DNA of 51,834 bases from positions 1-51,834 of IMG/VR virus record IMGVR_UViG_3300035130_000145; one strand, 5' to 3'. Positions within the stretch are counted from its first letter, which is position 1. Every line of letters begins with the position of its first letter. The stretch is from a virus. The translations under genes and the position numbers were made by a program. Below are positions 4,340 to 51,642 of this stretch, piece after piece. Under the pieces are notes generated by a model. The model worked only from the letters and a program-made list of their open reading frames with translations, was not told the DNA's origin and made no database searches.

Positions 4340-4980
4340 ATCGCAAGCACTCCTTGCGCAAGACGCTGCATAGCTGACCGACAATGCGCCTCTTCTATTT
4401 CAATACCAACAGCTCGATACCCAAGCGCCTTTGCCGCAACCAGTGTTGTCCCAGATCCAGCGAACGGATCCAGGATTACACCGCGATGGCAACAGGATAT
4501 TAAGTCCATCATTAGAGACACGGGCTTTTCCATTGGATGCCATCTTGATTTTCTTCGTCCTACGCAGCCCGCTACAGCCAGATGTCGCAACACGGAGCCT
4601 CTTCGCCTTCCAAAGAAACCTCTTCCGATTACATATATCTCCTCATGGTTTGGCTTCCATGGCAACGAAAGATCCCCCATGCCAACATGTTCACCTTTCT
4701 CCCATATAAGTAAGTGTCGAGTATTTATCGGGCGAGCAATTTTCCATGTTCCAAACACAAGAGCAGGGCGTTCACCCCATGCGTCAAGCAGTGTGTCACG
4801 GGCAACGGTATCCAGATCGCCTTTTATTGAGCAGTCGCCTAACCGTCCTTTCATTCCACTGCTAAACCCTATCCCATATGGCGGGTCGGTAACCAGTACG
4901 TCAGCGCATATCGAGTCAAACACATCCCGGAAATCGCAATTAAAAATTGTAATCCCTGATTCCTCGTAATAGGGTTTCAC
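4336..4980 (-). CDS. beta-class DNA methyltransferase (adenine-N6 or cytosine-N4)
   Basis: A 214-aa SAM-dependent DNA methyltransferase. DPPYGIGF sits at about 32-39 and the DPFAGSGTT SAM motif at about 171-179, giving the DPPY-first order of the beta class. The HPMEKPVSL segment before motif I is also typical. The start is GTG 4980, overlapping the upstream TGA (GTGA) and following GGAGATAGAG. No cognate nuclease is present. It is the second of three methyltransferases in 3.3 kb and is likely anti-restriction or regulatory. Confidence 0.85.
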   Translation of the reverse strand: MKPYYEESGITIFNCDFRDVFDSICADVLVTDPPYGIGFSSGMKGRLGDCSIKGDLDTVARDTLLDAWGERPALVFGTWKIARPINTRHLLIWEKGEHVGMGDLSLPWKPNHEEIYVIGRGFFGRRRGSVLRHLAVAGCVGRRKSRWHPMEKPVSLMMDLISCCHRGVILDPFAGSGTTLVAAKALGYRAVGIEIEEAHCRSAMQRLAQGVLAM

Positions 4981-5162
4981 TCCTCTATCTCCTCTCCGTG
5001 CGCATTCCAGCACGCTTTAACATTGCCGACATACCAATGACAGCATGATGCATCCGTATTGAACGGTCTGATTTCGCATCCTGCAAAGTCTTTGAGAGTG
5101 CAACGGCAACTGTGCCAACTGTACCAAGCGCATGCGCCGCAGAATTTACAGACACATCCCAT
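4977..5162 (-). CDS. Cys-rich zinc-knuckle protein (61 aa)
   Basis: Begins MGCVCKFCGACAWYSWHSCRC, with nine cysteines in the first 41 residues and a His, suggesting one or two zinc sites. The start lies inside the last codons of the C5 methyltransferase gene with GGAGG ten bases upstream. The stop overlaps the next methyltransferase start. A competing frame at 4985-5179 lacks these features. Being wedged between two methyltransferases, it may assist one of them (guess). Confidence 0.6.
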   Translation of the reverse strand: MGCVCKFCGACAWYSWHSCRCTLKDFAGCEIRPFNTDASCCHWYVGNVKACWNAHGEEIEE

Positions 5163-5868: not shown

Positions 5869-6133
5869 CTTTTGACCCTCGCTGTATGATTGTTTCAATC
5901 GCCAGAATCAGCCTGGCCACCGCGTGCGCCCAGTGGGGCTCACCGGTATCCTCATCGCTTCCATGTTGCGCCAGATGAGCGAGTGCATGTTTGATGTGTT
6001 CTTGCGCGCTGGCTTCGTCTTCGGCGTGCTTCTCGTCTCCATGGATCAGTAATTGCAAGACACCTGTGCAGGCCCTCCAGTCGTGTTCCAGGTAGTAATA
6101 AATCCTCCCCCACTGGTGATTGGTGATAATCAT
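5858..6133 (-). CDS. small helical protein, possibly dATP/dGTP diphosphohydrolase N-domain-like
   Basis: A 91-aa protein from ATG 6133 (ATGA overlap with the HTH gene). It has a His/Glu-rich helical core, EHIKHALAHLAQHG followed by DTGEPHWAHAVARLIL. This resembles the short N-terminal domain annotated DUF5664/dGTP_diPhyd_N in phages, which usually shows a GxPHLAHALxxLL pattern. The match is by eye only. It could be a small nucleotide hydrolase or an orphan helical domain. Confidence 0.55.
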   Translation of the reverse strand: MIITNHQWGRIYYYLEHDWRACTGVLQLLIHGDEKHAEDEASAQEHIKHALAHLAQHGSDEDTGEPHWAHAVARLILAIETIIQRGSKGAE

Positions 6134-7975: not shown

Positions 7976-8438
7976 TGGCTTTCCCTTTCTGGACTCTTCC
8001 TCTGAGCCTTTCCAGCCGCCGCAGTCTAAACGCCGTTATCCTCCGCGCCCTCGGTGTCCCCCTGCATCGGCCAGACGCATATCGCCACAGGCCGCGCTCC
8101 AGGCTCCCACAGAAGCGCCTATCCATGTCGATGAGCATTGCCCCACACATCACCTGCCCCCGTGCCGTGGATAGGTCGTGCTCGCCCTCGCAGGCCTTCC
8201 GGTGCTTCCCGTGAACCTGGAAGAGACCGACCTCTCCTAGTGCCCCCTCGGCGTCCACGCGAAATGATGACTCGTAGAACGACCAGGTGACGAGTAGGGA
8301 CGGTTCGATGTTGTATCGTTCGCCCGCGTCGACAAAGTGACGTGACATCGTATCCCGCGCATTGGCGTCACGGTACAGGAGACGATTGGGAGTAGTGGAT
8401 AACAGGATGAATATTATTGCCGATACCGAGGTCATCAT
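7959..8438 (-). CDS. SLT-type lytic transglycosylase endolysin with N-terminal signal
   Basis: A 159-aa muralytic enzyme cleaving the glycan strands of peptidoglycan. Residues 1-14 are hydrophobic (signal or signal-arrest). The SLT core follows: PSLLVTWSFYESSF with probable catalytic Glu 56, then GEVGLFQVHG (about 68-77). The C-terminus is strongly basic. AGGAGGT precedes the ATG. The location is in the replication/methylation arm rather than beside the tail genes. The signal-arrest type would not need a large-hole holin. Confidence 0.75.
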   Translation of the reverse strand: MMTSVSAIIFILLSTTPNRLLYRDANARDTMSRHFVDAGERYNIEPSLLVTWSFYESSFRVDAEGALGEVGLFQVHGKHRKACEGEHDLSTARGQVMCGAMLIDMDRRFCGSLERGLWRYASGRCRGTPRARRITAFRLRRLERLRGRVQKGKANGKRD

Positions 8439-9085: not shown

Positions 9086-10386
9086 CAGTATTCCGCCTCC
9101 CCAGCCCGCTGGTAATCGCCAACGTGCATGTGCTGTAGGTCGCAATGCAGACGCAGTTTGCCAGTCCGCCCATGCGAATTCTTCGCGATGATAAAAGTCA
9201 GCTCGTTCTCATCCTTCGATTCGTCGTAATACCTCGGACGATGAAGCAACCAGACCACGCGCGCGAGCTGTTCGAGCTCTCCGGTCTGTCGGAGATCGCC
9301 CAGCTCGGGAATTTTTGAAGACCGCTTTTCCGTCTCTCGGCTGAGTTGGTGTAGGCAAAGCACTGGGATGTTCAACTGTTTCGGAATCTCGACAATCGTT
9401 CGAGCGGCCGCCGTTGTGGATTCATAGAGATCCTTGCCCTTGTCACGGAGATGCCCGAGGTGGTCGAGTACCAGTAGGTCAAGACCGTGCTCCTCAGCGT
9501 GCTTAAATGCGACATTTCGGACATCGGCCGATGTTATTGACGTGGTGTCGTCAATCCAGATTGGAAGACATCCCACGACATCACGAACATTGTGAAGTAG
9601 TGTTCGCTCTTCAAAAGACAACCGTTTGGCGACGATACGGTCGAGTGCGACATTCGCAAAACGCGCAAATAACCGGTACAGAACGAAGCGTCGTGAATCC
9701 TCAGGACTGACAATCAGTACACGCTTGCCCGCCAACGCCGCGTTGGTAGCAATATTGAGGGCGAGGGTGCTTTTCCCCATTGACGGCCGTGAAGCCAATA
9801 CGCTGAGCAACCCGGGCCACAACCCGCCAAATTCGGCGTCGATAGTGCCAATGCCGGTTTTAATCAATCCGGCCGGTTCACCCTGCTCTTCGAGTTCCTG
9901 AAGTGTGCTGTCTATCAGGCTTGCGACTGAAATGGCGTTAGCGTTTTTGGTTTGCTGGTCGGCAACACCGGTCACCGCGGCCCGGGCCCGAGCGAGGAAA
10001 TCAGGAGTGTCGATGGACTGCTTGCTCCCCTCCTCAACGATATTCATCGCAGCCTGCATCATCACACGGCGGCGTCCTATCTCCCGAAGCTCGTTGAGAT
10101 AGTGATCGAAGTTTGCGGTCGTGGGCAATTCATCAGCAAGATGGTTTAGCCCCTCCATACCACCGACAAGGCGCTTCTCGTCGTCCCCAAGAGCCGAAAA
10201 CAGTGTGACCGGGTCAACTGGCTTACCTTCCACCAAGAGAGACTGTGTCGTTCTGTAGATGGTCTGATGCGGTATGTGATAGAAATCATCGGCCTCCAGT
10301 TCTGCAAAGAACCGTCCGAGTCGGTTATCCACGATGACGGCACCGAGCACGGCCCTTTCGGTTTCTATGCTGCGTGGAAGCTGCAT
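9085..10386 (-). CDS. dnaB: replicative DNA helicase, DnaB family
   Basis: A 433-aa hexameric helicase for phage DNA replication. The N-terminal DnaB domain opens with IETERAVLGAVIVDNR and DDFYHIPHQTIY. The RecA-like core has Walker A (SRPSMGKST, about 199-207), Walker B (LLVLDHLGHL, about 300-309) and the DnaB motif 3 to 4 region (LCLHQLSRETEKR, DLRQTGELEQLA). The length fits the family. The start overlaps the initiator gene's stop (TGATG). Together they form the replication module. Confidence 0.92.
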   Translation of the reverse strand: MQLPRSIETERAVLGAVIVDNRLGRFFAELEADDFYHIPHQTIYRTTQSLLVEGKPVDPVTLFSALGDDEKRLVGGMEGLNHLADELPTTANFDHYLNELREIGRRRVMMQAAMNIVEEGSKQSIDTPDFLARARAAVTGVADQQTKNANAISVASLIDSTLQELEEQGEPAGLIKTGIGTIDAEFGGLWPGLLSVLASRPSMGKSTLALNIATNAALAGKRVLIVSPEDSRRFVLYRLFARFANVALDRIVAKRLSFEERTLLHNVRDVVGCLPIWIDDTTSITSADVRNVAFKHAEEHGLDLLVLDHLGHLRDKGKDLYESTTAAARTIVEIPKQLNIPVLCLHQLSRETEKRSSKIPELGDLRQTGELEQLARVVWLLHRPRYYDESKDENELTFIIAKNSHGRTGKLRLHCDLQHMHVGDYQRAGEAEY

Positions 10387-11712: not shown

Positions 11713-11972
11713 AACAAAACATCAAAAAAACCAAATAAATACGAGGATATACTGAAAATATTTTCAGGGATGGTCCATGGCCTCAGAACGTCAATCTCGC
11801 TCCAAAACTACATATTTTCTGTCAGTCTTGATCGTTTTCTGAATATCTGGCAATTCCTGGAAATTTGCATTCTTTTCGAAACGATACATGCTTATCATCT
11901 GCGAAACAAATCGAAGACTTGGCGGGGAATACAGGTGGCACTGGTGCGCCAAATCAACAGGAAAGGTGCGAG

Positions 11973-13082
11973 ATGAGTAAGCATGTAAGACAGTCAAAAC
12001 CCGCCAGGCATGGCAATCAATGGCAAATCAGATGGACCGATGAAACGGGACATAGGCGAAGCGAGACGTGGAGCAACTACGAGGACGCCGAGCACGCCTT
12101 AGTGACTCACAAACTCCACGTGATGGAGATACGCCGTGGTCTCCGAGTAAGACCACCCAAGAGCCGTGGCTTTGAGGAACTGTGCCGGCAGTGGCTCGAG
12201 ATACGCACAGTCAAAAAGCGCACTCCAAAGGACGACACATCAATTATCAGGGTGCATCTGCGGCCGACCTTCGGCCATTTGGATATCGACCAAATCACTG
12301 CTGAACGCATCGATATTTTTTCGGCGGCGCTTTCAGCGAAGCGTGCACCACAGACGGTGAGAAACATTCTAATTCTTCTGGGGGCCATGTTGAGACAGGC
12401 GGTAGAGTGGGGGTGGCTCTTGGGCGTTCCTAAGATTCATCTTCCACGAGTTCGACTATTTCCTGCTGACTGCAAATGGCTACGCACTATCGATGAGCGA
12501 GATCAATTCCTGCGCGCGGCGCAAAATCACGCATTGCAGGTTGTCTACCCTATGTACGCCACCGCTGTGCACACCGGAATGCGCGCCGGCGAGCTCGCGG
12601 GTTTACAGTGGCAAGATATAGACTTCGAGCGTCGCCTTATTACCGTTCAAAGGTCATATGGTGGCCCTACAAAAAGTGGTGATATCCGACGCATACCAAT
12701 TGGTGACGGCCTACTTCCCATTCTGCGGGAGTGGCGGCTGGCCTGCGGCAACCGGCTGGCGTTTCCGAATACTGCCGGTCAGATGTGGGATCCGCGCGGG
12801 CGTATTTTCAAGACAGTATTCCAAAAAGTGCTTCAGCTCGGCGGATTCCCGCCGAAACATATCACCTTCCATTCGTTGAGGCACACGTTCGCGAGCTATT
12901 TCTTGATGAATGGTGGCGACTTAGAAGGCCTACGACGGATTCTTGGTCACAAAGACTCGAAGACAACCCAGCGGTATGCCCATTGGCGGCCCGATGCCTT
13001 TGACAAGTACTGGGGAATCATGGGGCCAACGAAGTGCCACGACGGCGAGGTGATCGAGATGCGCAAGAAGGAGGAGGCATGA
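11973..13082 (+). CDS. int: tyrosine-family integrase
   Basis: A 369-aa site-specific recombinase. An N-terminal arm/AP2-like region begins HGNQWQIRWTDETGHRR. A SAM-like core-binding domain covers about 65-160. The catalytic domain has Arg 204 (HTGMRAGE), Lys about 235, His 300 and Arg 303 (HSLRHTFA), His 326 (LGHKD) and nucleophile Tyr about 335 (TQRYAHW). ATG 11973 is chosen because AAAGGTGCGAG precedes it and the N-terminal domain begins there; 36 further upstream codons look unconserved. It adjoins attP. Confidence 0.93.
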   Translation: MSKHVRQSKPARHGNQWQIRWTDETGHRRSETWSNYEDAEHALVTHKLHVMEIRRGLRVRPPKSRGFEELCRQWLEIRTVKKRTPKDDTSIIRVHLRPTFGHLDIDQITAERIDIFSAALSAKRAPQTVRNILILLGAMLRQAVEWGWLLGVPKIHLPRVRLFPADCKWLRTIDERDQFLRAAQNHALQVVYPMYATAVHTGMRAGELAGLQWQDIDFERRLITVQRSYGGPTKSGDIRRIPIGDGLLPILREWRLACGNRLAFPNTAGQMWDPRGRIFKTVFQKVLQLGGFPPKHITFHSLRHTFASYFLMNGGDLEGLRRILGHKDSKTTQRYAHWRPDAFDKYWGIMGPTKCHDGEVIEMRKKEEA

Positions 13083-19429: not shown

Positions 19430-19734
19430 CTGAAAACAAAATCGAAAAAATGAAGGCTCAAATAGTGATTCTTGAGCATGAAATATCGCGACTGAAATCA
19501 CGTCTCAATATGCCGACCTCACCAGGATGGTACTGGGCGTTGGCGCAAGGTGAACCTGAGCCGGTTGTTATGCAGGTGATAGAATCCGACAGCCATCATG
19601 GACTAAAGGAGCTTATCTGTAGAAGAGATGGTAATATTTGGGGGCCAGTTCAGAAAAGCGACTGCATCGTCAAATGGCTCGGTCCGGTGGCTCCGTGTGA
19701 ATACAAAGAGGGACATCCCGATGAAAACCCGTAA
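19420..19734 (+). CDS. PGWYWA-type small phage protein with N-terminal coiled coil (104 aa)
   Basis: From ATG 19420 (AAAGGA upstream). Residues 5-26 are a coiled coil (NKIEKMKAQIVILEHEISRL). Then comes a small beta domain: TSPGWYWALAQGEPEPVVMQV ... IWGPVQKSDCIVKWLGPVAP. This 'GWYWA ... EPV ... W-GPV' domain is frequent in phages as a stand-alone protein of unknown function. The genes at 21868 and 22157 look like more divergent versions. Confidence 0.6.
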   Translation: MDVTENKIEKMKAQIVILEHEISRLKSRLNMPTSPGWYWALAQGEPEPVVMQVIESDSHHGLKELICRRDGNIWGPVQKSDCIVKWLGPVAPCEYKEGHPDENP

Positions 19735-20608
19735 ACAATGGCTGAAAGAACGGAAGCGTTTCATCACTGCTTCGGATGTTGCCGCGGTGCTCGGTGTACT
19801 GACCGCATTCAAAAACATCCTCGACGTTTACATGGACAAAACAACCGATGACGTCGAGGAGAGCGACAGCCCGATTCTGCGATACGGCCATTACATGGAG
19901 CCTTTCACGGCTGAGCTCTACGCCGAGCAGACAGGCCGGGAGGTGCGCGACCCGGGGGCAACGGAGATCGCCGTCCACCCAGACATCCCTTGGCTTGGGG
20001 CCACACTGGATCGAGAGACACTTGTGGATGGTCGCTGGATACCGCTGGAGATAAAGCAGGTCAATGACCCACGCTACATCTTCAAGGCCGCAGAGTGGGC
20101 AGAGGAGCCACCCGAGCAATACTGGATACAGTGTCAGACACAGGCGGCCTGTAAACAAATGGACTTGTGCGCTATCACCGGTCAGTTCCCGGGGTGCATG
20201 CTCGCCAACGCCGATCTGGAGTTTGACGGGGAGTTTTTCGAACTGGCGTATCCGGTGCTCGATGAGTTTTGGAACTACAATGTAAAGAAGCGGATCCCTC
20301 CCGAGGTGCCCGACCATCCGAAGGCACTGGATTCTCTGAAGCGACTCTATCCAAAGGAGAACGGCTGGACCGTCACCCTCAATGACAACGCGCTCCAGTT
20401 GGCCAACGATATGCGCGCCCTCAGAGCGGAAGCGCGCGAGAACGACAAAGAGGCAAAGCGGATCGAAGCGATACTGAGAGGGCAGATGGGGAAGGCTTCT
20501 TATGGTGCTTTGAGAGACGGAACAGTCCTTCAACTTACCACGGTCAATCGGAAGGGCTACACCGTTGAGCCCAAAAGTTTCCGTCAGATGACAAGAAAGA
20601 GATACTGA
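19721..20608 (+). CDS. YqaJ-type phage recombinase/exonuclease
   Basis: A 295-aa PD-(D/E)XK nuclease of the YqaJ/lambda-Exo kind, which resects dsDNA to feed the annealing protein. Motifs: RFITASDVAAVLG (about 13-25), Glu in YMEPFTAELY (about 58-67), catalytic Asp in LGATLDRE (Asp 97), LEIKQ (Glu 110 and Lys 112) and YWIQCQTQAACKQMD (about 134-148). The start MKTRKQWLKERKR at 19721 has GAGGGAC upstream; the longer frame to 19628 is a read-through of the prior gene region. Confidence 0.85.
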   Translation: MKTRKQWLKERKRFITASDVAAVLGVLTAFKNILDVYMDKTTDDVEESDSPILRYGHYMEPFTAELYAEQTGREVRDPGATEIAVHPDIPWLGATLDRETLVDGRWIPLEIKQVNDPRYIFKAAEWAEEPPEQYWIQCQTQAACKQMDLCAITGQFPGCMLANADLEFDGEFFELAYPVLDEFWNYNVKKRIPPEVPDHPKALDSLKRLYPKENGWTVTLNDNALQLANDMRALRAEARENDKEAKRIEAILRGQMGKASYGALRDGTVLQLTTVNRKGYTVEPKSFRQMTRKRY

Positions 20609-45011: not shown

Positions 45012-46666
45012 GCCGCGGCCTCCTCCTCGATCATGTCCGCTGGATCGAAGACTCCCATGCCGAGCGCCTTCATCGCATCGGTGACGTTCTTCTCGCCAAA
45101 CTCGCGCTGTGCCTCGAGGATGGGACGCATCGCCTTTACCTTCATGCGGTTCTCTTTCTCTACCCTTCGGATCGTCTTATCGAATTTGGAGCCAGTGAGC
45201 GCCCTCGAGGCGTGACTATTGGTCTCCCACCCCTCGGAGACCATTGCCTTGTGGGCGTTGACCTCTTTGAGGATGTCCACCGACGGCTTGATGGAGCCAA
45301 TCCAATCGATTGACAGCCAAGCCTGTTTGACGTCGTATTTCATCGGGTCGGACAGCGCCTCGAGGAACCCTGGCGCCTCGATTTTTCCAAGCAGTAGCTC
45401 GGATATAAACCACTCCTCGACGAGATTCTGACAGTGCTGAGACGCAAACCGAGCCCGCTTCTCGTCGAGAACCATTATGAATTCGCGTAGAGCAGCTTGG
45501 GATGCAGAGTAGTTGCTGCTGAAGCTAAGCAATAAGATCTCAGGAGGAATTTCCATTGCCCATGAGAGGCCAGCTACAATGGCCGACTCGAACGACGCGA
45601 AATTCACATCCGTTCCATGGACAGAATACGGGACTGGTTCCTCGCCCGGTTGCAGTGAGCCAAACCATACCCCTGGCAGGATCCTGTTGACCTCCACGGG
45701 CCTCGTTTCGCCCGTCGTGTCATCTGTGACGCTGTCCTTGCGCACGGCGCCGTTGCCGATGTGAGGAATCATCTTGGCTTCTTGTGCCCGCTTGATGAAT
45801 CCAATGATCATAGCATTGATCGATGATTTGAGTTGAGCGCTGTCCCTATTTTTCTGGATCTCATTGAGCGGCTGGATCGCCATGCCAAGCCCGGGCATCC
45901 CACGCACGTCGTCCTCGCGCTTGTTCGGACCGTAGACAAGCCAAGCGGTGTGGCGACCCGACCTCGGCCCGTGCGCAGGCACGTAGACGTAACTGTCGTT
46001 GAGAATGTGATCGGTTCCCTGATAGACCCAGAACCCGAGGTGCTTGCCGTTCTTGTCGAGCTTTACACCGTCGACAATATTTTCGTCCATCGCGTGCTCG
46101 GGTGGGGTCTGCACACGGTTTCCGGAGACAATCTGAATCTGAGGGAGTCCCGTTGGTTTGTGCTGTCGATTGATGACCAGGCAGTCCCCATCGATAAATG
46201 CCTCTTGGTAGATCTGGGCTTGTTGCTCTCCATCGATTCGGTATCCCTTGCAATCGATAATGTCTTTCGCCTTGCCGTAGAGCCGGTAGCGATTCTCCAT
46301 TTTGTCGGCCCAGTCGACGAGGGAATCCTCTGGCGCGCCGATGACAGATTCTTCTGGCGTAAACTCCGGCTCCAATCCTTTGTGGATCACATTGGTAACG
46401 AGGCGATTTACAATTCCGATAGCATAGGTGTTCGTCCGGAATAGGGCTCCGCTTCGGGATCTGAGTGTCCAGTAATCAAGCGAGGCGATCTCATCGATTT
46501 GGCCGGAGACACCTCCCCAGAAATTCGCCCCATCGTACGTGCCTGTCGGTGGAGAAATGAATTGAGATTGGGCTTGAATCGGAACCGGTTCGGGTTCTTC
46601 AGCTGCTGGCGAATCGGGCCAGATCCAGGGGAGCTCCTCTTCCTCGATGCGGCGGCCCCAGCTCAT
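45008..46666 (-). CDS. portal protein (lambda portal family)
   Basis: A 552-aa dodecameric portal. Typical blocks: GRRIEEEELPWIWPD, RSRSGALFRTNTYAIGIVNRLVTNVI, EAFIDGDCLVINRQHKPTG, VYVPAHGPRSGRHTAWLV, and WSMEIPPEILL-like GLSWAMEIPPEILLLSFSSNYSASQAALREF. The start is ATG 46666, coupled to the gpW stop (ATGA) with GTGAGGT upstream; the longer frame to 46717 is out of the operon pattern. Confidence 0.88.
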   Translation of the reverse strand: MSWGRRIEEEELPWIWPDSPAAEEPEPVPIQAQSQFISPPTGTYDGANFWGGVSGQIDEIASLDYWTLRSRSGALFRTNTYAIGIVNRLVTNVIHKGLEPEFTPEESVIGAPEDSLVDWADKMENRYRLYGKAKDIIDCKGYRIDGEQQAQIYQEAFIDGDCLVINRQHKPTGLPQIQIVSGNRVQTPPEHAMDENIVDGVKLDKNGKHLGFWVYQGTDHILNDSYVYVPAHGPRSGRHTAWLVYGPNKREDDVRGMPGLGMAIQPLNEIQKNRDSAQLKSSINAMIIGFIKRAQEAKMIPHIGNGAVRKDSVTDDTTGETRPVEVNRILPGVWFGSLQPGEEPVPYSVHGTDVNFASFESAIVAGLSWAMEIPPEILLLSFSSNYSASQAALREFIMVLDEKRARFASQHCQNLVEEWFISELLLGKIEAPGFLEALSDPMKYDVKQAWLSIDWIGSIKPSVDILKEVNAHKAMVSEGWETNSHASRALTGSKFDKTIRRVEKENRMKVKAMRPILEAQREFGEKNVTDAMKALGMGVFDPADMIEEEAAA

Positions 46667-46926
46667 GCGGACCTCACCAGGCTTGTCCCGCTGCCGTTGA
46701 GTCTGGTATCGAGCCAATCCAAGCGGAGATAGAGCTTGTCGAGCTCGACGTTTAGCCGCGATATATCCTTCTTCGTCACCGTCTGCCGGGTCTGGCCTGT
46801 ATCAATCGTGTAGCTCTGGAGATTTCCAGTAGACAGCGCAAGAATAGCGTCCTCGATGGCCTCGATGGCCGTTTTGGTCTTATCGATCCGAGATTGGAGC
46901 CATGTTGCGGTTATTGCTGATGCCAT
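46663..46926 (-). CDS. gpW-like head-tail joining protein
   Basis: An 87-aa protein matching lambda gpW in size, place and style: a helix (WLQSRIDKTKTAIEAIEDAILALS) followed by a beta hairpin (SYTIDTGQTRQTVTKKDI) and a second helix (SRLNVELDKLYLRLDWL). Its ATG lies inside an operator half-site (TGTCTCA at 46926), and no ordinary ribosome site precedes it (TATGAGAC). It is the first gene after the inserted accessory cassette. Confidence 0.78.
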   Translation of the reverse strand: MASAITATWLQSRIDKTKTAIEAIEDAILALSTGNLQSYTIDTGQTRQTVTKKDISRLNVELDKLYLRLDWLDTRLNGSGTSLVRSA

Positions 46927-47066
46927 GTCTCATAGCCCAAAATTGAGACAAAAATGTCTCTCTGAGACAAGTATGTCTCATTAGTGTCTCACTGGTCAAG
47001 CGGGAATGCATAAAAATGTCTCACTTGCATAATTATATAATAAATACAGCTATTTAGATTGTCTCA
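46926..47066. promoter_or_regulatory. operator cluster: TGAGACA/TGTCTCA sites, two palindromes, candidate minus promoter
   Basis: Eight copies of the 7-mer TGTCTCA or its complement (one copy, at 46955, ends in T) lie at 46926, 46944, 46955, 46963, 46974, 46985, 47017 and 47060. Two full palindromes TGAGACA-N4-TGTCTCW (46944-46961 and 46963-46980) lie 19 bp apart. A minus-strand promoter, TTGACC (46999-46994), 18-bp spacer and CATACT (46975-46970), overlaps the second palindrome, so a bound repressor would block transcription of the gpW/portal genes. Confidence 0.8.
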
Positions 47067-47097: not shown

Positions 47098-47126
47098 TGG
47101 ACACATCCTGATGTGTCCGCTATAGT
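47098..47126 (+). promoter_or_regulatory. promoter with operator palindrome in its spacer (accessory cassette)
   Basis: A -35-like TGGACA (47098-47103), exactly 17 bp and TATAGT (47121-47126) form a good sigma70 promoter pointing into the small plus-strand genes. Its spacer is the perfect palindrome GGACACATC-ct-GATGTGTCC (47099-47118), so a dimeric repressor could shut it off. The palindrome differs from the TGTCTCA operators next to it, implying a second regulator. Confidence 0.65.
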
Positions 47127-47173
47127 AGGTACAGATGGTCGCAATGGAGCGGCCATGAGCAAAGGAGAGAAAG

Positions 47174-47335
47174 ATGAAAACCGGATACGAAGCAATTGAA
47201 GCCAAGAAAAACGATAACAGGGTAATCCTCTGCAAATACGCCGATCCTACTGAGGACGCGCGAGAGGACATCTCGGTAGAGGATGCTGAGGAAATCGCCA
47301 GCGAAGACCCCAGTCTCATCTACGTTGCTGAGTAA
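47174..47335 (+). CDS. small acidic phage protein (53 aa)
   Basis: An ORF of 53 codons after AAAGGAGAGAAAG. The product MKTGYEAIEAKKNDNRVILC has its conserved-looking part in the C-terminal half (ISVEDAEEIASEDPSLIYV), a small phage domain of unknown role. Its TAA touches the first repeated leader. Confidence 0.65.
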   Translation: MKTGYEAIEAKKNDNRVILCKYADPTEDAREDISVEDAEEIASEDPSLIYVAE

Positions 47336-47408
47336 CCGACCCCCACCCTGCCCGCCAGCAATGACGGGTGGGAGTGGCGGCCGATTCGGCCAGAAAAGGA
47401 GTAAGAAG
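47334..47408 (+). repeat. repeated hairpin leader, copy A
   Basis: A 75-base intergenic RNA module starting exactly at the previous gene's stop codon. It has a C-rich arm CCGACCCCCACCCTG, a hairpin CCCGCCA-gcaa-TGACGGG region, and a second hairpin GGCCG-att-CGGCC (47379-47391), then AGAAAAGGAGTAA (ribosome site) seven bases before ATG 47409. Copy B at 47654-47727 is nearly identical outside the loops. Confidence 0.75.
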
Positions 47409-47654
47409 ATGAAAAAGTATTACAAAGAAGTGTGCGGTGTCGATCCAAAATACCCCGAATGGGGATACAGCACAGAAGGAAGACTCTTTTCCTTTGAAAA
47501 AGAGTCACGAAAATGGAAATTGTTCTCCTACACTGGAGGCTGGCGCGGTTGTCCGGCACCCGACTGCACGATACTTCCTGTTGCAGCGCAAGAGGCAATC
47601 GATTTTCAGCGACGCAGACCGGCGCCTAGATTCAGATTTAAATGTGATCGCTGA
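47409..47654 (+). CDS. hypothetical accessory protein (81 aa)
   Basis: Starts MKKYYKEVCGVDPKYPEWGYS behind leader copy A. The KLFSYTGGWRGCPAPDC segment suggests a small strand-rich fold, and the C-terminus is very basic (FQRRRPAPRFRFKCDR). Unknown. Transcribed with six other small genes from the 47.1-kb promoter, counter to the late operon. Confidence 0.6.
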   Translation: MKKYYKEVCGVDPKYPEWGYSTEGRLFSFEKESRKWKLFSYTGGWRGCPAPDCTILPVAAQEAIDFQRRRPAPRFRFKCDR

Positions 47655-47727
47655 ACCGACCCCCACCCTGCTCGCCACTATGTGGCGGGCGGGAGTGGAG
47701 GCCGATTCGGCCAGAAAAGGAGTAAAA
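47654..47727 (+). repeat. repeated hairpin leader, copy B
   Basis: Like copy A it begins at the preceding stop codon (TGA 47652-47654) and ends before ATG 47728. Its first hairpin is GCTCGCCAC-tat-GTGGCGGGC (with one G-U pair), where copy A has a different sequence pairing the same way. The second hairpin GGCCG-att-CGGCC (47700-47712) and AGAAAAGGAGTAA are kept. Keeping structure with sequence change argues for RNA function. Confidence 0.75.
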
Positions 47728-47979
47728 ATGAAGATTAGAACAGGAACCAAAGCCGCCACCGGCTTTATCGTTAAAGTTGGAAATGAAAACAAGTTTCGAC
47801 CGTCTCCGAATGGAGACATAATCCGATTCACAGATACATCTTGGAACAACAGGGGCGTCAGTGGATATGCCCCGGCAATAGGGGCGAAATTGATCACAAG
47901 CGGGACTCCAGAAAGTCTCGCGACATGGGAAGTATCTTGCTATCCGCTAGATATCGATACTATGGGCAGAAAGGAGTAA
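47728..47979 (+). CDS. hypothetical accessory protein (83 aa)
   Basis: Starts MKIRTGTKAATGFIVKVGNE behind leader B, spacing five bases. Strand pattern with a polar loop region (FRPSPNGDIIRFTDTSWNNRG) and SGYAPAIGAKLITSGTPES, perhaps a small beta domain. No family recognised. Confidence 0.6.
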   Translation: MKIRTGTKAATGFIVKVGNENKFRPSPNGDIIRFTDTSWNNRGVSGYAPAIGAKLITSGTPESLATWEVSCYPLDIDTMGRKE

Positions 47980-47983
47980 GAGA

Positions 47984-48166
47984 ATGGATTTTTTTTATAA
48001 GACAGACGGAGAAAGCGGGATAATTCAGGCATCCTCGATTGAGGATGCTCGCGATAAAATGATTATCGAGGCCGACCTTACGCCGGCGGCAATCCAGGAT
48101 GGAGCATGGGGCTGGATTGAGGATTTCAATGGCGAACGAATATACGTCGCCGAAGAAAACATATAG
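47984..48166 (+). CDS. hypothetical accessory protein (60 aa)
   Basis: ATG 47984 follows GCAGAAAGGAGTAAGAG, the same ribosome-site cassette as the leader copies but without the GC hairpins. Sequence MDFFYKTDGESGIIQASSIED with an acidic helix (EDARDKMIIEADLTPAAIQDG) and WGWIEDFNGERIYVAEEN; likely alpha/beta. Unknown. Confidence 0.55.
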   Translation: MDFFYKTDGESGIIQASSIEDARDKMIIEADLTPAAIQDGAWGWIEDFNGERIYVAEENI

Positions 48167-48200
48167 TGGCCGATTATCAGCCAAGCAAAGGAGTGTAAAG

Positions 48201-48689
48201 ATGGGAGAATTCTTAGATCAAGTGATGGCCGGAGGGCCGTCGCTGATGGATTTGAATGAAAAACAACAGCGTGTCGTAAGTTGCTTGAAAGAAGATCCGT
48301 CAGGCTGGGCTTGGCAATTGTCCAGAGAGAAAATATTAAATCCATTACGAGAGGCGGTGAAAGAAGAACTTCTTTCAGATTCCTCTTGTAAATTGGATTG
48401 TGCATTTCTAACCTACGATATGTTGATTGAGTCGTGCGCCAGCGAAGACGACTCGGAGTCCTGGGCCCGAAAATTAATTGCATGGATGAGTCCAGCCCTT
48501 CCTCAATTACATTTCGGGCCAAGGGGATGGCATGCGGCTTTCCGACATGCTGTGGTATCTCAAGCTAAGTGGTTGCGAGAGCATGAAAAAAACCAAAAAG
48601 ATGTTAGGATTAACAGTCCAAGCCTTCCTCCTTGGGAAAACAAGGCATGCCTTGTACTGGCGGAGTTGGTGGAGGCGGAGACAATATGA
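48201..48689 (+). CDS. helical accessory protein (162 aa)
   Basis: The largest gene of the cassette, from ATG 48201. Its leader carries a hairpin variant GGCcGAT-t-ATCaGCC and AAAGGAG. The protein is mostly helical (EKQQRVVSCLKEDPSGWAWQLSREK, SCKLDCAFLTYDMLIES, WARKLIAWMSPALPQLHFGPRGWHAAFRH). No enzymatic motif; could be an anti-defence or exclusion protein. Stop coupled to the 25-aa ORF. Confidence 0.6.
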   Translation: MGEFLDQVMAGGPSLMDLNEKQQRVVSCLKEDPSGWAWQLSREKILNPLREAVKEELLSDSSCKLDCAFLTYDMLIESCASEDDSESWARKLIAWMSPALPQLHFGPRGWHAAFRHAVVSQAKWLREHEKNQKDVRINSPSLPPWENKACLVLAELVEAETI

Positions 48690-48763
48690 CAGACTACGTC
48701 CGAATGGAGAATCATCACAGGAATCACAGGTTGCCGTGGTCGCGGCCAAGGGGTGAGAGATGA
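48686..48763 (+). CDS. tiny coupled ORF (25 aa)
   Basis: ATG 48686 overlaps the previous TGA (ATGA) and its TGA overlaps the next start (48760). The product MTDYVRMENHHRNHRLPWSR... is basic. The perfect tiling with neighbours suggests it is translated, at least as a coupling bridge. No function inferred. Confidence 0.45.
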   Translation: MTDYVRMENHHRNHRLPWSRPRGER

Positions 48764-49038
48764 GCACCGACGCGGCCGTCACGGCCGCTCGCCTACTACT
48801 CGAAGCGAACGTCCCGAGCGGCATCACCCAAGAGCGGATCGACCGGCTCGCCGAGGTGATAAAGGGAATCACCGAAGATGAGCTTTCACGGCTCAGAATC
48901 GAGACATGTGCCCACGGGGGAGGGGACCCGGAGCGATACGGGAAACGGAGGAAGCGCGCCGGGCGGGCTGTCAAGATAGGGACCGCTGGCGTACATCCTG
49001 GTGAGAAAGGCGTCCAGATCTGGGCGGTATGGGCTTAG
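48760..49038 (+). CDS. hypothetical accessory protein (92 aa), end overlaps terminase
   Basis: Starts MSTDAAVTAARLLLEANVPSG; the N-terminal two-thirds is helical (ERIDRLAEVIKGITEDEL). The Arg/Lys/Gly-rich C-terminus (YGKRRKRAGRAVKIGTAGVH) may bind nucleic acid. It ends four bases inside the oppositely oriented large terminase gene, marking the cassette boundary. Confidence 0.5.
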   Translation: MSTDAAVTAARLLLEANVPSGITQERIDRLAEVIKGITEDELSRLRIETCAHGGGDPERYGKRRKRAGRAVKIGTAGVHPGEKGVQIWAVWA

Positions 49039-51020
49039 GCTGCCTCCTTCCAGAACACCCCGCTCTTGCAGTATTCCCAGAACTGGTGCCAATCCACACC
49101 ATCATCGAGCTCGTATACTTTTACGCACACAAGATAGGCGAGTATCTCCACCGAAGCATGCCCGTACACGAGGAGGTCCCAGAGCTCATTATCAGCGCCA
49201 CTCGGCCGGTGCCATACATACCCTTTCCGGCCGTTCGGGAGATCAACCTCTTTTTTGTACTCTCGGGTGAGTTCTTTGATCTCGTCGTCGGTAGCGTCTA
49301 CCGGCAAATTGAGGACATATGGGCGTTGAGTGCCGTGCTCTGGTCGCCACCTACGGCGCAGCGCTGGTCCGCATCGGTCTTTATATTCGTCGACGGTAAT
49401 CAAATAGTACAGCGCACCAGATTTTGTTCTTGATTCCTTGAATGGCTGGATAGTACTGGACTTCGGCGATTTGTCAGTCCCCATAATGGGATAAACCATG
49501 TGATCCCATTGAGAGCAAAAATCAACCACCACGTCGGTATTGTACCGGGCATCAATTAGGCTCAATGCCAGCCGGTACTCTCGGCCGCAGTCGTCTACCC
49601 ATGTCTCTGTGTCGATGACATCCCTGAGTTGATCCCATCCCTCCGCGTCGATGCTTTCAAACCCGGTCTCTGTCTCGTCGATAATTTGGTAGTAGTCGAT
49701 CTGCCACGGACTGAAACCAAACCCGTCGCCCTGTGTCCACCCCCAAATCGCAACATTGAGATGCGATTTGTGAACATCCACGGTCATGGTCAGAAACAGT
49801 ACGCCAGATACGCAGTATTCTTCGATTTTCTTATTTGGTATCTGTCCCTTGGTGTAGAACTGCCGTCGGTGACCGGATACGACGCGGAATGTGATCTTGT
49901 CCCCTTCCTCCTCGAATGTCTGCGCGAGAAAGTTGTTGTAAAGCCTGCGAAGAGCCTTCCTACTCTTCGTGCGTCCCGTCTTGATGTCCATGGCCTCGAG
50001 GTACATCGATACGCCTTTTGACCACCTTGTTCGGCGAGACATGAGGCCGGTGATATGGTAGCTCCTGATTCCTGGCTCAACCGGAACGGCAGTAGGCTCC
50101 CAAAAGGCATTGTCCTTCGCGATAAACCTGATTTTATCGTGCTCTGTATGTGGATTATCGCAGTATTTACAGTGGTATCGAACACTGTTTATGTCAAGCT
50201 GGTCACCATTCATATCCCATTTCAGACCATACTTCTCTCCTGTGTCCTTGTTCGTTCCGGAGAACCGCAGCTCCTGTGCCTCTCCGCACCTCAGACACCG
50301 AACCTTGTATTTCCTCCGGTCACCTCTGTTGTATTGCTCTTCAATCCGTGATGCCCCCCTCGTTGTAGGCGTACACCCAATGAAAATCTTTCTGACATCA
50401 TCAAATGCAGTTGTCCTATCACGAAAAAGCTGGATTGGGTCGCCGTCCGGGTTGTCCGGATAGGCGTCTACCTCGTCGAGCAGTAGTCCTAAAGCAGGGA
50501 TCTCTCTCATCATGTGGGCTTTCTGCCCGCCTCTCGGGATCATGTGGCCGCCGCCGACCCACTGCATGTGATCCTTGGTGACACCGCGTTTTCTACTGTT
50601 CCCGATGTCATGGCTTTGAAAGATGCCTCCGAGTCCGGATAACTGAAACATCGGTATGAACGATGAATCAATAATCTCCCTGGCAGCGTCGATTGTGACG
50701 TTCGAGTAAATGACGGGAGCGGTCCGGATATGAACAGCGAAATAAAAAACGATTGCCCTCAAGATTGTCGAGTAAGCGGATTGCACACACTTCAGGACGG
50801 ATACTTCGCGGACATCTTCACGGACATCGAAGCAGTTCAGAATCTCTATCCAGTACGGGGTACGGTCAAATCGGATGTAGCCAGGATCTTTAGTTTCTGA
50901 CGACGGCAGGAAGCGCATGCTCTCGTTGCACTCAACCGGTGTCATCTGCTGAATATGGTCTGTGAGGTCCAACGCCGTCTCGGACGCCCACTGCCTTCCA
51001 ATTGTGTCGATATTACACAT
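49035..51020 (-). CDS. large terminase subunit, GpA family
   Basis: A 661-aa packaging motor. It has the GpA-family pattern: N-terminal RFLPSSETKDPGYIRFDRTPYWIEILNCF, a degenerate Walker A (KCVQSAYST, about 77-85) and Walker B LLLDEVDAYP (about 179-188), then CTPTTRGASRIEEQYNRGD and a zinc-binding region (CLRCG ... CKYC). The nuclease part includes VDVHKSHLNVAIWGW (about 410-425). Start ATG 51020 overlaps the small terminase end. Confidence 0.88.
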   Translation of the reverse strand: MCNIDTIGRQWASETALDLTDHIQQMTPVECNESMRFLPSSETKDPGYIRFDRTPYWIEILNCFDVREDVREVSVLKCVQSAYSTILRAIVFYFAVHIRTAPVIYSNVTIDAAREIIDSSFIPMFQLSGLGGIFQSHDIGNSRKRGVTKDHMQWVGGGHMIPRGGQKAHMMREIPALGLLLDEVDAYPDNPDGDPIQLFRDRTTAFDDVRKIFIGCTPTTRGASRIEEQYNRGDRRKYKVRCLRCGEAQELRFSGTNKDTGEKYGLKWDMNGDQLDINSVRYHCKYCDNPHTEHDKIRFIAKDNAFWEPTAVPVEPGIRSYHITGLMSRRTRWSKGVSMYLEAMDIKTGRTKSRKALRRLYNNFLAQTFEEEGDKITFRVVSGHRRQFYTKGQIPNKKIEEYCVSGVLFLTMTVDVHKSHLNVAIWGWTQGDGFGFSPWQIDYYQIIDETETGFESIDAEGWDQLRDVIDTETWVDDCGREYRLALSLIDARYNTDVVVDFCSQWDHMVYPIMGTDKSPKSSTIQPFKESRTKSGALYYLITVDEYKDRCGPALRRRWRPEHGTQRPYVLNLPVDATDDEIKELTREYKKEVDLPNGRKGYVWHRPSGADNELWDLLVYGHASVEILAYLVCVKVYELDDGVDWHQFWEYCKSGVFWKEAA

Positions 51021-51642
51021 CTTCGAACAGCGCCCTTTTGATGTCACGCTTCAGCGGTTTAACAAGGGAGGAGATCTCTTCCCGGATGGCCACCTCTACT
51101 TCTTCGCGGGCGACACCCTTCTCTCCTCTCTCCTCCGCCTCGAGACCGGACCGAACAAGGGAGAACGCCGTTGAGGTGATCGTCTTGGCTCCATCTGTGA
51201 GTAGCCGTACAAGGAATGTTTCCAGTGGGTTCCATACGCCACGGATCATAATCTCCCTTGCAACGAGGCGCCCCTCAATCTGGGCATTCTTGAGTTCAAG
51301 TTGCTGGGCCTGTGCTGCCAGTTTTCGTCGCTCAAGGACGAGCTTATCCATGGCACTTGAGATGTCGTCTTCGCTTGGGAGGGGAAAAGGTGGACGGTCA
51401 ATAGATGGGCGCCCCCGCGGCGCTGACTTCTTTTTCGGACCTGGCTTCTTCTTCGCTTTGCTTGGCTTCTTCTTTTTTGACCGCTCCTTCTTAGCGGCAA
51501 TGTAGGCGCCACACTCCGGCGCTTCTGCGTCAATCGTGCCGTCTGGCAATACAGGGATCCGGTTCTCCCGTATCGCCTTCGAGACGGCCGCTTTCGAGAC
51601 GCCAGCCAGATCCGCGAAGTCCTTTTTCGAAACACGGCCCAT
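51013..51642 (-). CDS. small terminase subunit (Nu1-like)
   Basis: A 209-aa packaging initiator. N-terminal winged HTH (VSKKDFADLAGVSKAAVSKAIRE, about 4-26) for binding the cos/pac region, a Lys/Pro-rich linker (about 50-80), and a helical oligomerisation domain with LERRKLAAQAQQLELKNAQIEGRLV. Immediately upstream lie the GTTAAC repeats that could be its binding sites. GGGGAT precedes ATG 51642. Confidence 0.78.
   Translation of the reverse strand: MGRVSKKDFADLAGVSKAAVSKAIRENRIPVLPDGTIDAEAPECGAYIAAKKERSKKKKPSKAKKKPGPKKKSAPRGRPSIDRPPFPLPSEDDISSAMDKLVLERRKLAAQAQQLELKNAQIEGRLVAREIMIRGVWNPLETFLVRLLTDGAKTITSTAFSLVRSGLEAEERGEKGVAREEVEVAIREEISSLVKPLKRDIKRALFEDV

Follow-up and report, generated by a model that had tools for sequence, protein, structure and literature searches.

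Short repeated elements placed just before start codons are known from the cluster K mycobacteriophages, where SAS, which resemble a ribosome binding site (RBS), and ESAS, which have an inverted repeat in addition, stand before many genes (2011, PMC3203893; PMC11373665; PMC12699233). The ESAS carry SigA-like -35/-10 promoters (PMC11373665). In T4-like phages the PeSLs (promoter early stem-loop) have been tied to gene shuffling, according to papers that refer to them (cited in PMC4177764, PMC4503421). Phages gain and lose small accessory genes quickly, which raises the question of how a newcomer comes to be expressed at once. The early region of phage T7 has intercistronic RNase III hairpins at its gene boundaries, and the gene cassettes of integrons carry attC sites. 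The PeSL, a name connected with work by Arbiol et al. in 2010 and Comeau et al. in 2014, reportedly combines an early promoter and a terminator-like stem-loop in one unit.

Here we describe a structured leader, composed of one or two hairpins and an open, A-rich Shine-Dalgarno sequence (SD), which in a group of tailed phages connects the members of a small accessory (moron-like) gene array that changes fast. We consider it reasonably probable that this leader, which has no promoter, is a portable RBS insulator and a gene-shuffling junction at the same time. The connector between the genes, though promoterless, appears to provide the joint as well as the RBS, which would be a compact system linking gene swapping with ready-made expression signals.

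The window, i.e. the whole stretch of 51,834 nucleotides analysed, is an IMG/VR record of 51.8 kb and belongs to a tailed phage. Its minus strand encodes a terminase, a portal protein and a gpW-like connector. A phage-type integrase is found at 11865-13082 and a RecE/YqaJ-type (RecE-like) exonuclease at 19628-20608, and the phage is therefore probably temperate. The array of tiny plus-strand genes (47174-49038) lies between terL (49035-51047, minus strand) and the gpW-like gene (46663-46926, minus strand). Of two distant relatives, Shewanella phage SppYZU01 has one or two co-directional ORFs at this place between terL and gpW, and Acinetobacter phage Scuro has a gap of ~345 nt there. Searches of the array proteins against Pfam and PHROGs gave no useful match. 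The features are listed here in order; G001 to G004 and L032 are related phage records and a contig introduced below.

47098..47126, plus strand: sigma70-like array promoter, TGGACA-17-TATAGT, with the top promoter-like score in the array (10/12)
47100-47117: palindrome GACACATCCTGATGTGTC in the spacer of the array promoter
47135..47156, plus strand: 5' hairpin of the g1 leader, found by folding, non-homologous to the two repeats
47161-47167: SD AAAGGAG after the g1 5' hairpin
47174..47335, plus strand: g1, 53 aa, no assigned function; first array gene in the window, G001 and G002
47334..47408, plus strand: leader copy 1, with hairpin 1 at 47343-47377, hairpin 2 at 47379-47391 and SD at 47396-47401
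47409..47654, plus strand: g2, 81 aa, no assigned function; the G002 homologue (84% DNA identity) is likewise behind a leader
47654..47727, plus strand: leader copy 2, with hairpin 1 at 47663-47698, hairpin 2 at 47700-47712 and SD at 47717-47722
47728..47979, plus strand: g3, 83 aa, no assigned function; the G003 homologue (93% DNA identity) is behind a leader
47970..47983, plus strand: leader SD remnant before g4; a full leader is at this spot in G001
47984..48166, plus strand: g4, 60 aa, no assigned function; common to the window, G001 and G003, fused behind gB in G002
48168..48193, plus strand: half-leader, a hairpin-2 variant GGCCGATTATCAGCC plus AAGCAAAGGAG; weak covariance match at 48142-48192
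48201..48689, plus strand: g5, 162 aa, no assigned function
48760..49038, plus strand: g6, 92 aa, no assigned function; conserved final array gene adjoining terL, also in L032

The first-pass annotation described two modules that run from stop codon to start codon, and this is what we find: the leaders are 74-75 nt long, their opening bases overlap the stops of the preceding genes (TAA 47333-47335 and TGA 47652-47654) and the next ATG follows at 47409 and 47728. They are also nearly identical, as claimed (91% in the right 46 nt, 96% in the left 24 nt), and they are the only 2 full copies in the window's own record. Folding of either RNA gives hairpin 1 (15-16 bp with a bulged A), hairpin 2 (GGCCG-ATT-CGGCC) and AAGGAG in an open tail. 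The fold energy corresponds to z = -2.8 for copy 1 (2 of 200 shuffles as good) and z = -4.8 for copy 2 (0 of 200). The compensatory changes which had been claimed between the two copies were not found. In stem 1 C-G is replaced by U.G and G-C by G.U, and copy 1 has a C.A mismatch; each of these differences is one-sided, and further ones lie in the loop of hairpin 1; two-sided changes that preserve pairing emerge only once relatives are included. Partial versions had been noted before three other genes. The one before 48201 stands as a half-leader, before 47984 there is the SD tail only, and the hairpin plus SD before 47174 is non-homologous. The SD tail (47970-47979) also provides the stop codon of g3, the last residues of which lie inside it (GGAGTAA). 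No promoter-like or terminator-like site was found on the plus strand of either leader copy. An intrinsic terminator would be a GC-rich hairpin followed by a T-run; the leader tail reads AGAAAAGGAG, and the array has no terminator-like site on the plus strand.

The leader resembles SAS and ESAS in being a repeated RBS-containing motif just before the start codons of genes of different families, and in having two tiers, a short one with the RBS motif and an extended one with an imperfect inverted repeat and a variable spacer. In ESAS this repeat is ~17 bp; the leader arms are 15-16 bp, or ~23 pairs when extended, with a variable loop of 3-5 nt, which is a likeness in kind and not in sequence. 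The 13-bp SAS motif GGGATAGGAGCCC near the start codon is read in 0 leader copies, the leader motif being A-rich with AAGGAG. The sequence and the phage group are thus different, and the short form of the leader itself has a hairpin. Unlike ESAS the leaders are without promoter, the array promoter being at 47098-47126, and whereas SAS and ESAS are spread over the genome the leader copies stand in one array, with gene exchange visible at them. With the PeSLs, as far as the citing papers describe them, the leaders share repeated intergenic stem-loop units linked with gene shuffling; they differ from that description in carrying the SD of the next gene and in having neither the early promoter nor the stem-loop terminator of the unit. 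Because of the other sequence and the lack of promoter and terminator the leader belongs to neither SAS/ESAS nor PeSL. Its existence suggests that repeats of this start-associated kind, ESAS among them, have more than one origin. Like the T7 RNase III hairpins, the leader hairpins separate cistrons on a polycistronic phage transcript and precede the RBS of the next one; hairpin 1 is shorter, however, and the T7 case has no link to gene shuffling.

An exact long pattern gave 0 matches in viral contigs; a split pattern located the leader in the viral contigs L004 (record G001), L005 (G002), L006 (G003), L010 (G004) and L032. From the arrays 2 copies were read in G001, 2 in G002, 3 in G003 and 5 in G004, the last number including one decayed copy and one with an internal deletion. 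A covariance model (R1) built from 12 copies was used to search 256 kb of phage DNA, in which 13 full copies scored E<1e-17 and weak or decayed ones were found besides. All R1 matches lie inside one array per phage, in six phage contigs and before different genes, with 0 elsewhere in the 256 kb; matches on the opposite strand are reflections of the palindrome with much lower scores. Such a search for pairing elsewhere had been proposed as a check on the idea of a mobile unit, and the idea came through it. With the patterns used, no leader turned up in phages of GenBank, in plasmids or in bacterial genomes, a negative which is only as strong as those patterns. To judge from these searches only a narrow group of phages has the leader. 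A covariance search of 369 genomes of the class of record G005 (a Curvibacter record, class assumed to be Gammaproteobacteria) gave no leader; there is no close TerL in those genomes either, so they do not point to a host and the negative is a weak one.

A number of other matches were discarded. The split-pattern matches L003, L007, L008 and L009 are due to chance, as is L090, which lies within an integrase-like gene, and the 39 pattern matches in bacterial genomes were all judged to be chance since none had the second hairpin and the SD. Matches resembling half-leaders (L097/L103, L099, L100, L104) may be chance. Rfam gave no match to the leaders at gathering level; an HDV-like ribozyme (RF02682) scored 20.7 bits against a gathering threshold of 44 (E 0.13-0.34) for copy 2 only, and this match is absent from the leader copies of L030 and L031.

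In 15 aligned copies 90.7% of the cells expected to pair do so, compared to 37-48% when the partners are slid. Covariation is modest: the score is 0.164 against 0.126 +/- 0.012 for shuffles, and the count of two-sided pairs is unremarkable (reached in 172 of 500 shuffles). Two clear two-sided changes, both from G-C to A-U, are found in G004b (columns 21-33) and G004e (columns 47-61). In the G001b/G002a variant a further two-sided change takes in the apical stem as a block, and the minimum-energy form of G002a departs from the common structure. The pair cells in 13 copies comprise 216 Watson-Crick, 33 G.U, 8 C.A and 2 other pairs; it should be noted that the copies are related and that one nearly fixed U.G pair (12 of 13 copies) accounts for 12 of the 33 G.U cells. 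A DNA cruciform would be indifferent to G.U and C.A alike, and the excess of G.U over C.A therefore favours pairing in the sense-strand RNA. Whether this RNA has a role in translation or mRNA stability we put at about even chances.

Anatomy and folding make a translation-control element plausible. The 5' end of the leader, AAYCGACC, can pair with GGCCGATT to form one long hairpin which competes with hairpin 2, and this is the form preferred by RNAalifold. In single copies with AACCG hairpin 2 is favoured (P of the long form about 0.00-0.03 in most); the long form is favoured in some AATCG copies only and predominates in G001b and L032. The SD is open in both forms. Its accessibility was at or above the shuffled-leader mean in 12 of 12 copies tested, but taken singly most tests did not reach significance, 3-50 of 100 shuffles doing as well. 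A hairpin right before the SD is found at the array genes and not clearly at other genes of the window.

The same structures are what an intercistronic RNA processing site might look like, where RNase III or another nuclease would cut hairpin 1 or the extended AAYCG...CGATT stem and hairpin 2 would cap the downstream 5' end. This is the strongest functional rival, and the location between stop and SD fits it, as does the long hairpin that RNAalifold chooses and that dominates in G001b and L032. We still regard it as rather unlikely, since 15-16 bp is short for RNase III and most AACCG copies disfavour the extended form.

The sequence is conserved beyond what pairing asks for, e.g. in CGACCCCCACCCTG and GGGAGTGG, as would be expected of a binding site at which a phage or host RNA-binding protein controls the array genes jointly. 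We find this improbable: there is no candidate protein, the SD is not covered by the hairpins, and the two conserved stretches were also part of the search pattern and may owe their conservation to homogenisation by recombination. We hold equally little for a broader form of the idea, an RNA-level regulon of accessory genes whose leader would be recognised by a factor, of phage or host, dedicated to it, would place the genes under the same post-transcriptional control and would serve as homology for exchange, so that it spreads between otherwise unrelated phages.

The evidence for the leader as a joint comes from comparing the arrays, which are laid out as follows (L, leader; half, half-leader).

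Window: g1-L-g2-L-g3-g4-half-g5-g6
G001: g1-L-gA-L-g4-half-g5-g6
G002: g1-L-g2-L-gB fused to g4-half-g5-g6
G003: L-gX, then g1-L-gA-L-g3-g4-half-g5 fused into the half-leader before the next gene
G004: decayed L-gY-L-g1'-L-gZ-deleted L-gW-L-gB'

The window is closely related to G001 and G002. With G003 it shares some early genes only, and with G004 little beyond the leaders and ~300 bases elsewhere. The array has different genomic settings in G003 and G004; by eye, the neighbours in G004 are helicase-like, exonuclease-like and other replication genes, i.e. early genes. Since the same leaders occur in phages which share so little else, the module has moved between phage types. The gB-g4 fusion in G002 apparently arose through loss of the intervening leader; on the reverse strand of L029 (6339-6734) gB and g4 form one ORF of 131 aa. 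Two adjacent array genes of G004 are each preceded by a copy of a promoter-like block, TTGCGCTTATTAATTTAGYCCCYATACTTAATAATATGAGCTGCAA (L031 reverse strand, ~4653-4710 and 5062-5120).

The window and G002 are alike up to 47732, at the start of g3, and become similar again inside g4. The homology between the window and G003 begins at 47654, which is the first base of leader 2, and the window and G001 diverge at 47407 and rejoin at 47970 in the SD of g4. Altogether 27 of 44 ends of homology blocks lie <=10 nt from a leader or half-leader against 17% expected, this being the share of the arrays made up by leaders and half-leaders; the block ends are not independent. Between G001 and G003 the gene gA has 98.9% identity, whereas the leaders flanking it differ at 6 of 61 columns (upstream) and 12 of 61 (downstream), and g1 upstream of it has 68% identity. 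Within G003 the two leaders around gA differ at 1 of 61 columns. Genes and leaders thus have separate histories, as expected of exchange or conversion in the leaders. Scars in leader sequence support such exchange: the stop codon of g3 lies inside the SD of a lost leader, g5 in G003 passes at its end into hairpin 2 through 8 identical nt, GTGGAGGC (window 48669-48676), g1 in L084 is followed by merely the first bases of a leader, and in L032 the leader has lost its SD and passes into other sequence.

The mobile gene-plus-leader unit suggested by the first-pass annotation is well supported by all this, in that the same leader stands before different genes in six contigs, some of them from nearly unrelated phages, and homology blocks are bounded by leader edges. 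That the leader is a gene-shuffling junction we regard as very probable, with two reservations: leaders merely travelling with their genes would likewise end homology at leader edges, and the six contigs compared are few and share ancestry.

An ordinary recent duplication, in which the leader was copied along with the genes and only carried the RBS while the hairpins are a by-product, would account for the two nearly identical leaders of G003 and for the one-sided changes between the window copies. It would not lead one to expect leaders that are conserved though the genes behind them are unrelated. Neither would it explain that the leaders of the nearly unrelated G004 and of L032, a diverged sister, retain most of the pairing (e.g. 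GC to AU in G004), nor the 33 wobble cells against 8 C.A, and we think it improbable.

In having small genes lined up after a single promoter and, at the gene boundaries, an imperfect inverted repeat with an extrahelical base, the array also resembles integron cassettes; it differs in the varying positions of the junctions, in the lack of attC boxes and of an IntI in the array (the integrase found, at 11865-13082, is of phage type only), and in a repeat that holds the RBS of the downstream gene. That the leader is a DNA element, i.e. an attC-like site which as folded single strand or cruciform is used by a site-specific recombinase, the RNA hairpin being incidental, is very unlikely: the whole unit does form an imperfect inverted repeat of some length, AAYCGACC...GGCCGATT, in which one A is extrahelical, and it lies between swapped genes as attC does, but the boxes RYYYAAC/GTTRRRY are absent by eye (the ends read CTGAACCGACC / GGCCGATTCGG), the junctions are scattered over start codon, SD, hairpin 2 and first leader bases instead of one bond, the G.U excess with its U.G pair in 12 of 13 copies points to sense RNA, and no recombinase was recognised in the array, the integrase being 34 kb off.

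Returning to the leader as RBS insulator and junction, a newcomer gene inserted behind it would be provided with an RBS that is insulated and accessible within the polycistronic message made from the 47098 promoter. The hairpins would stop the SD from pairing with neighbouring RNA and might possibly stabilise processed mRNA ends. The shared leader sequence would offer short homologies for phage recombination, perhaps by the RecE/YqaJ-type system encoded in the window phage, and genes could be swapped, deleted or fused. The genes carried by the array are candidates for host-interaction roles.

The first gene of the array has its own version of the arrangement. Homologues of g1 are found in G003, G004, L084, L088 and L098/L102, and a unit of promoter-like sequence, hairpin CTCAACAAGATGTTGAG and SD stands before g1 and another gene in related phages. 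In L084 and L098 CTCAACAAGATGTTGAG is a different stem sequence, also pairing, at the place of the window hairpin 47135..47156. A search for hairpin 2 plus SD gave half-leaders in contig 3300034989_000065 (L098/L102), which also has a g1 homologue, one right after g1 and one ~1.8 kb upstream of it. In these phages a hairpin followed by an SD seems to be the usual way in which array genes are built. The repeated unit reads TTGACA ... TTAAAAT, hairpin CTCAACAAGATGTTGAG, SD in L084 (~5926-6000), L098 (reverse, ~8219-8292) and L102 (reverse, ~1507-1577), and this cassette resembles the PeSL.

The array promoter has its counterpart in L032, TTGACA-17-TATGAT with a different palindrome, GACACCCCATGGGGTGTC, and in G001/G002 the spacer palindrome is GACACATCCGGATGTGTC. 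These differences from phage to phage suggest that the accessory array may be controlled by a repressor. The palindrome thus varies from GACACATCCTGATGTGTC in the window to GACACATCCGGATGTGTC in G001/G002 and GACACCCCATGGGGTGTC in L032 (reverse strand, ~10004-10021). Between the gpW-like gene and the array there are 8 TGTCTC/GAGACA hexamers within 140 bases (46926-47065), against 37 in the whole window, and the group looks like a putative operator cluster. At this place L032 has TGTAGA/TCTACA repeats, as if the binding specificity had changed. At the other end of the window, an ORF of 363 aa opens with a serine-valine repeat (MHESPSVGTSASVSVSVSVS..., 1428-1600), which may reflect a mis-set start or a low-complexity stretch.
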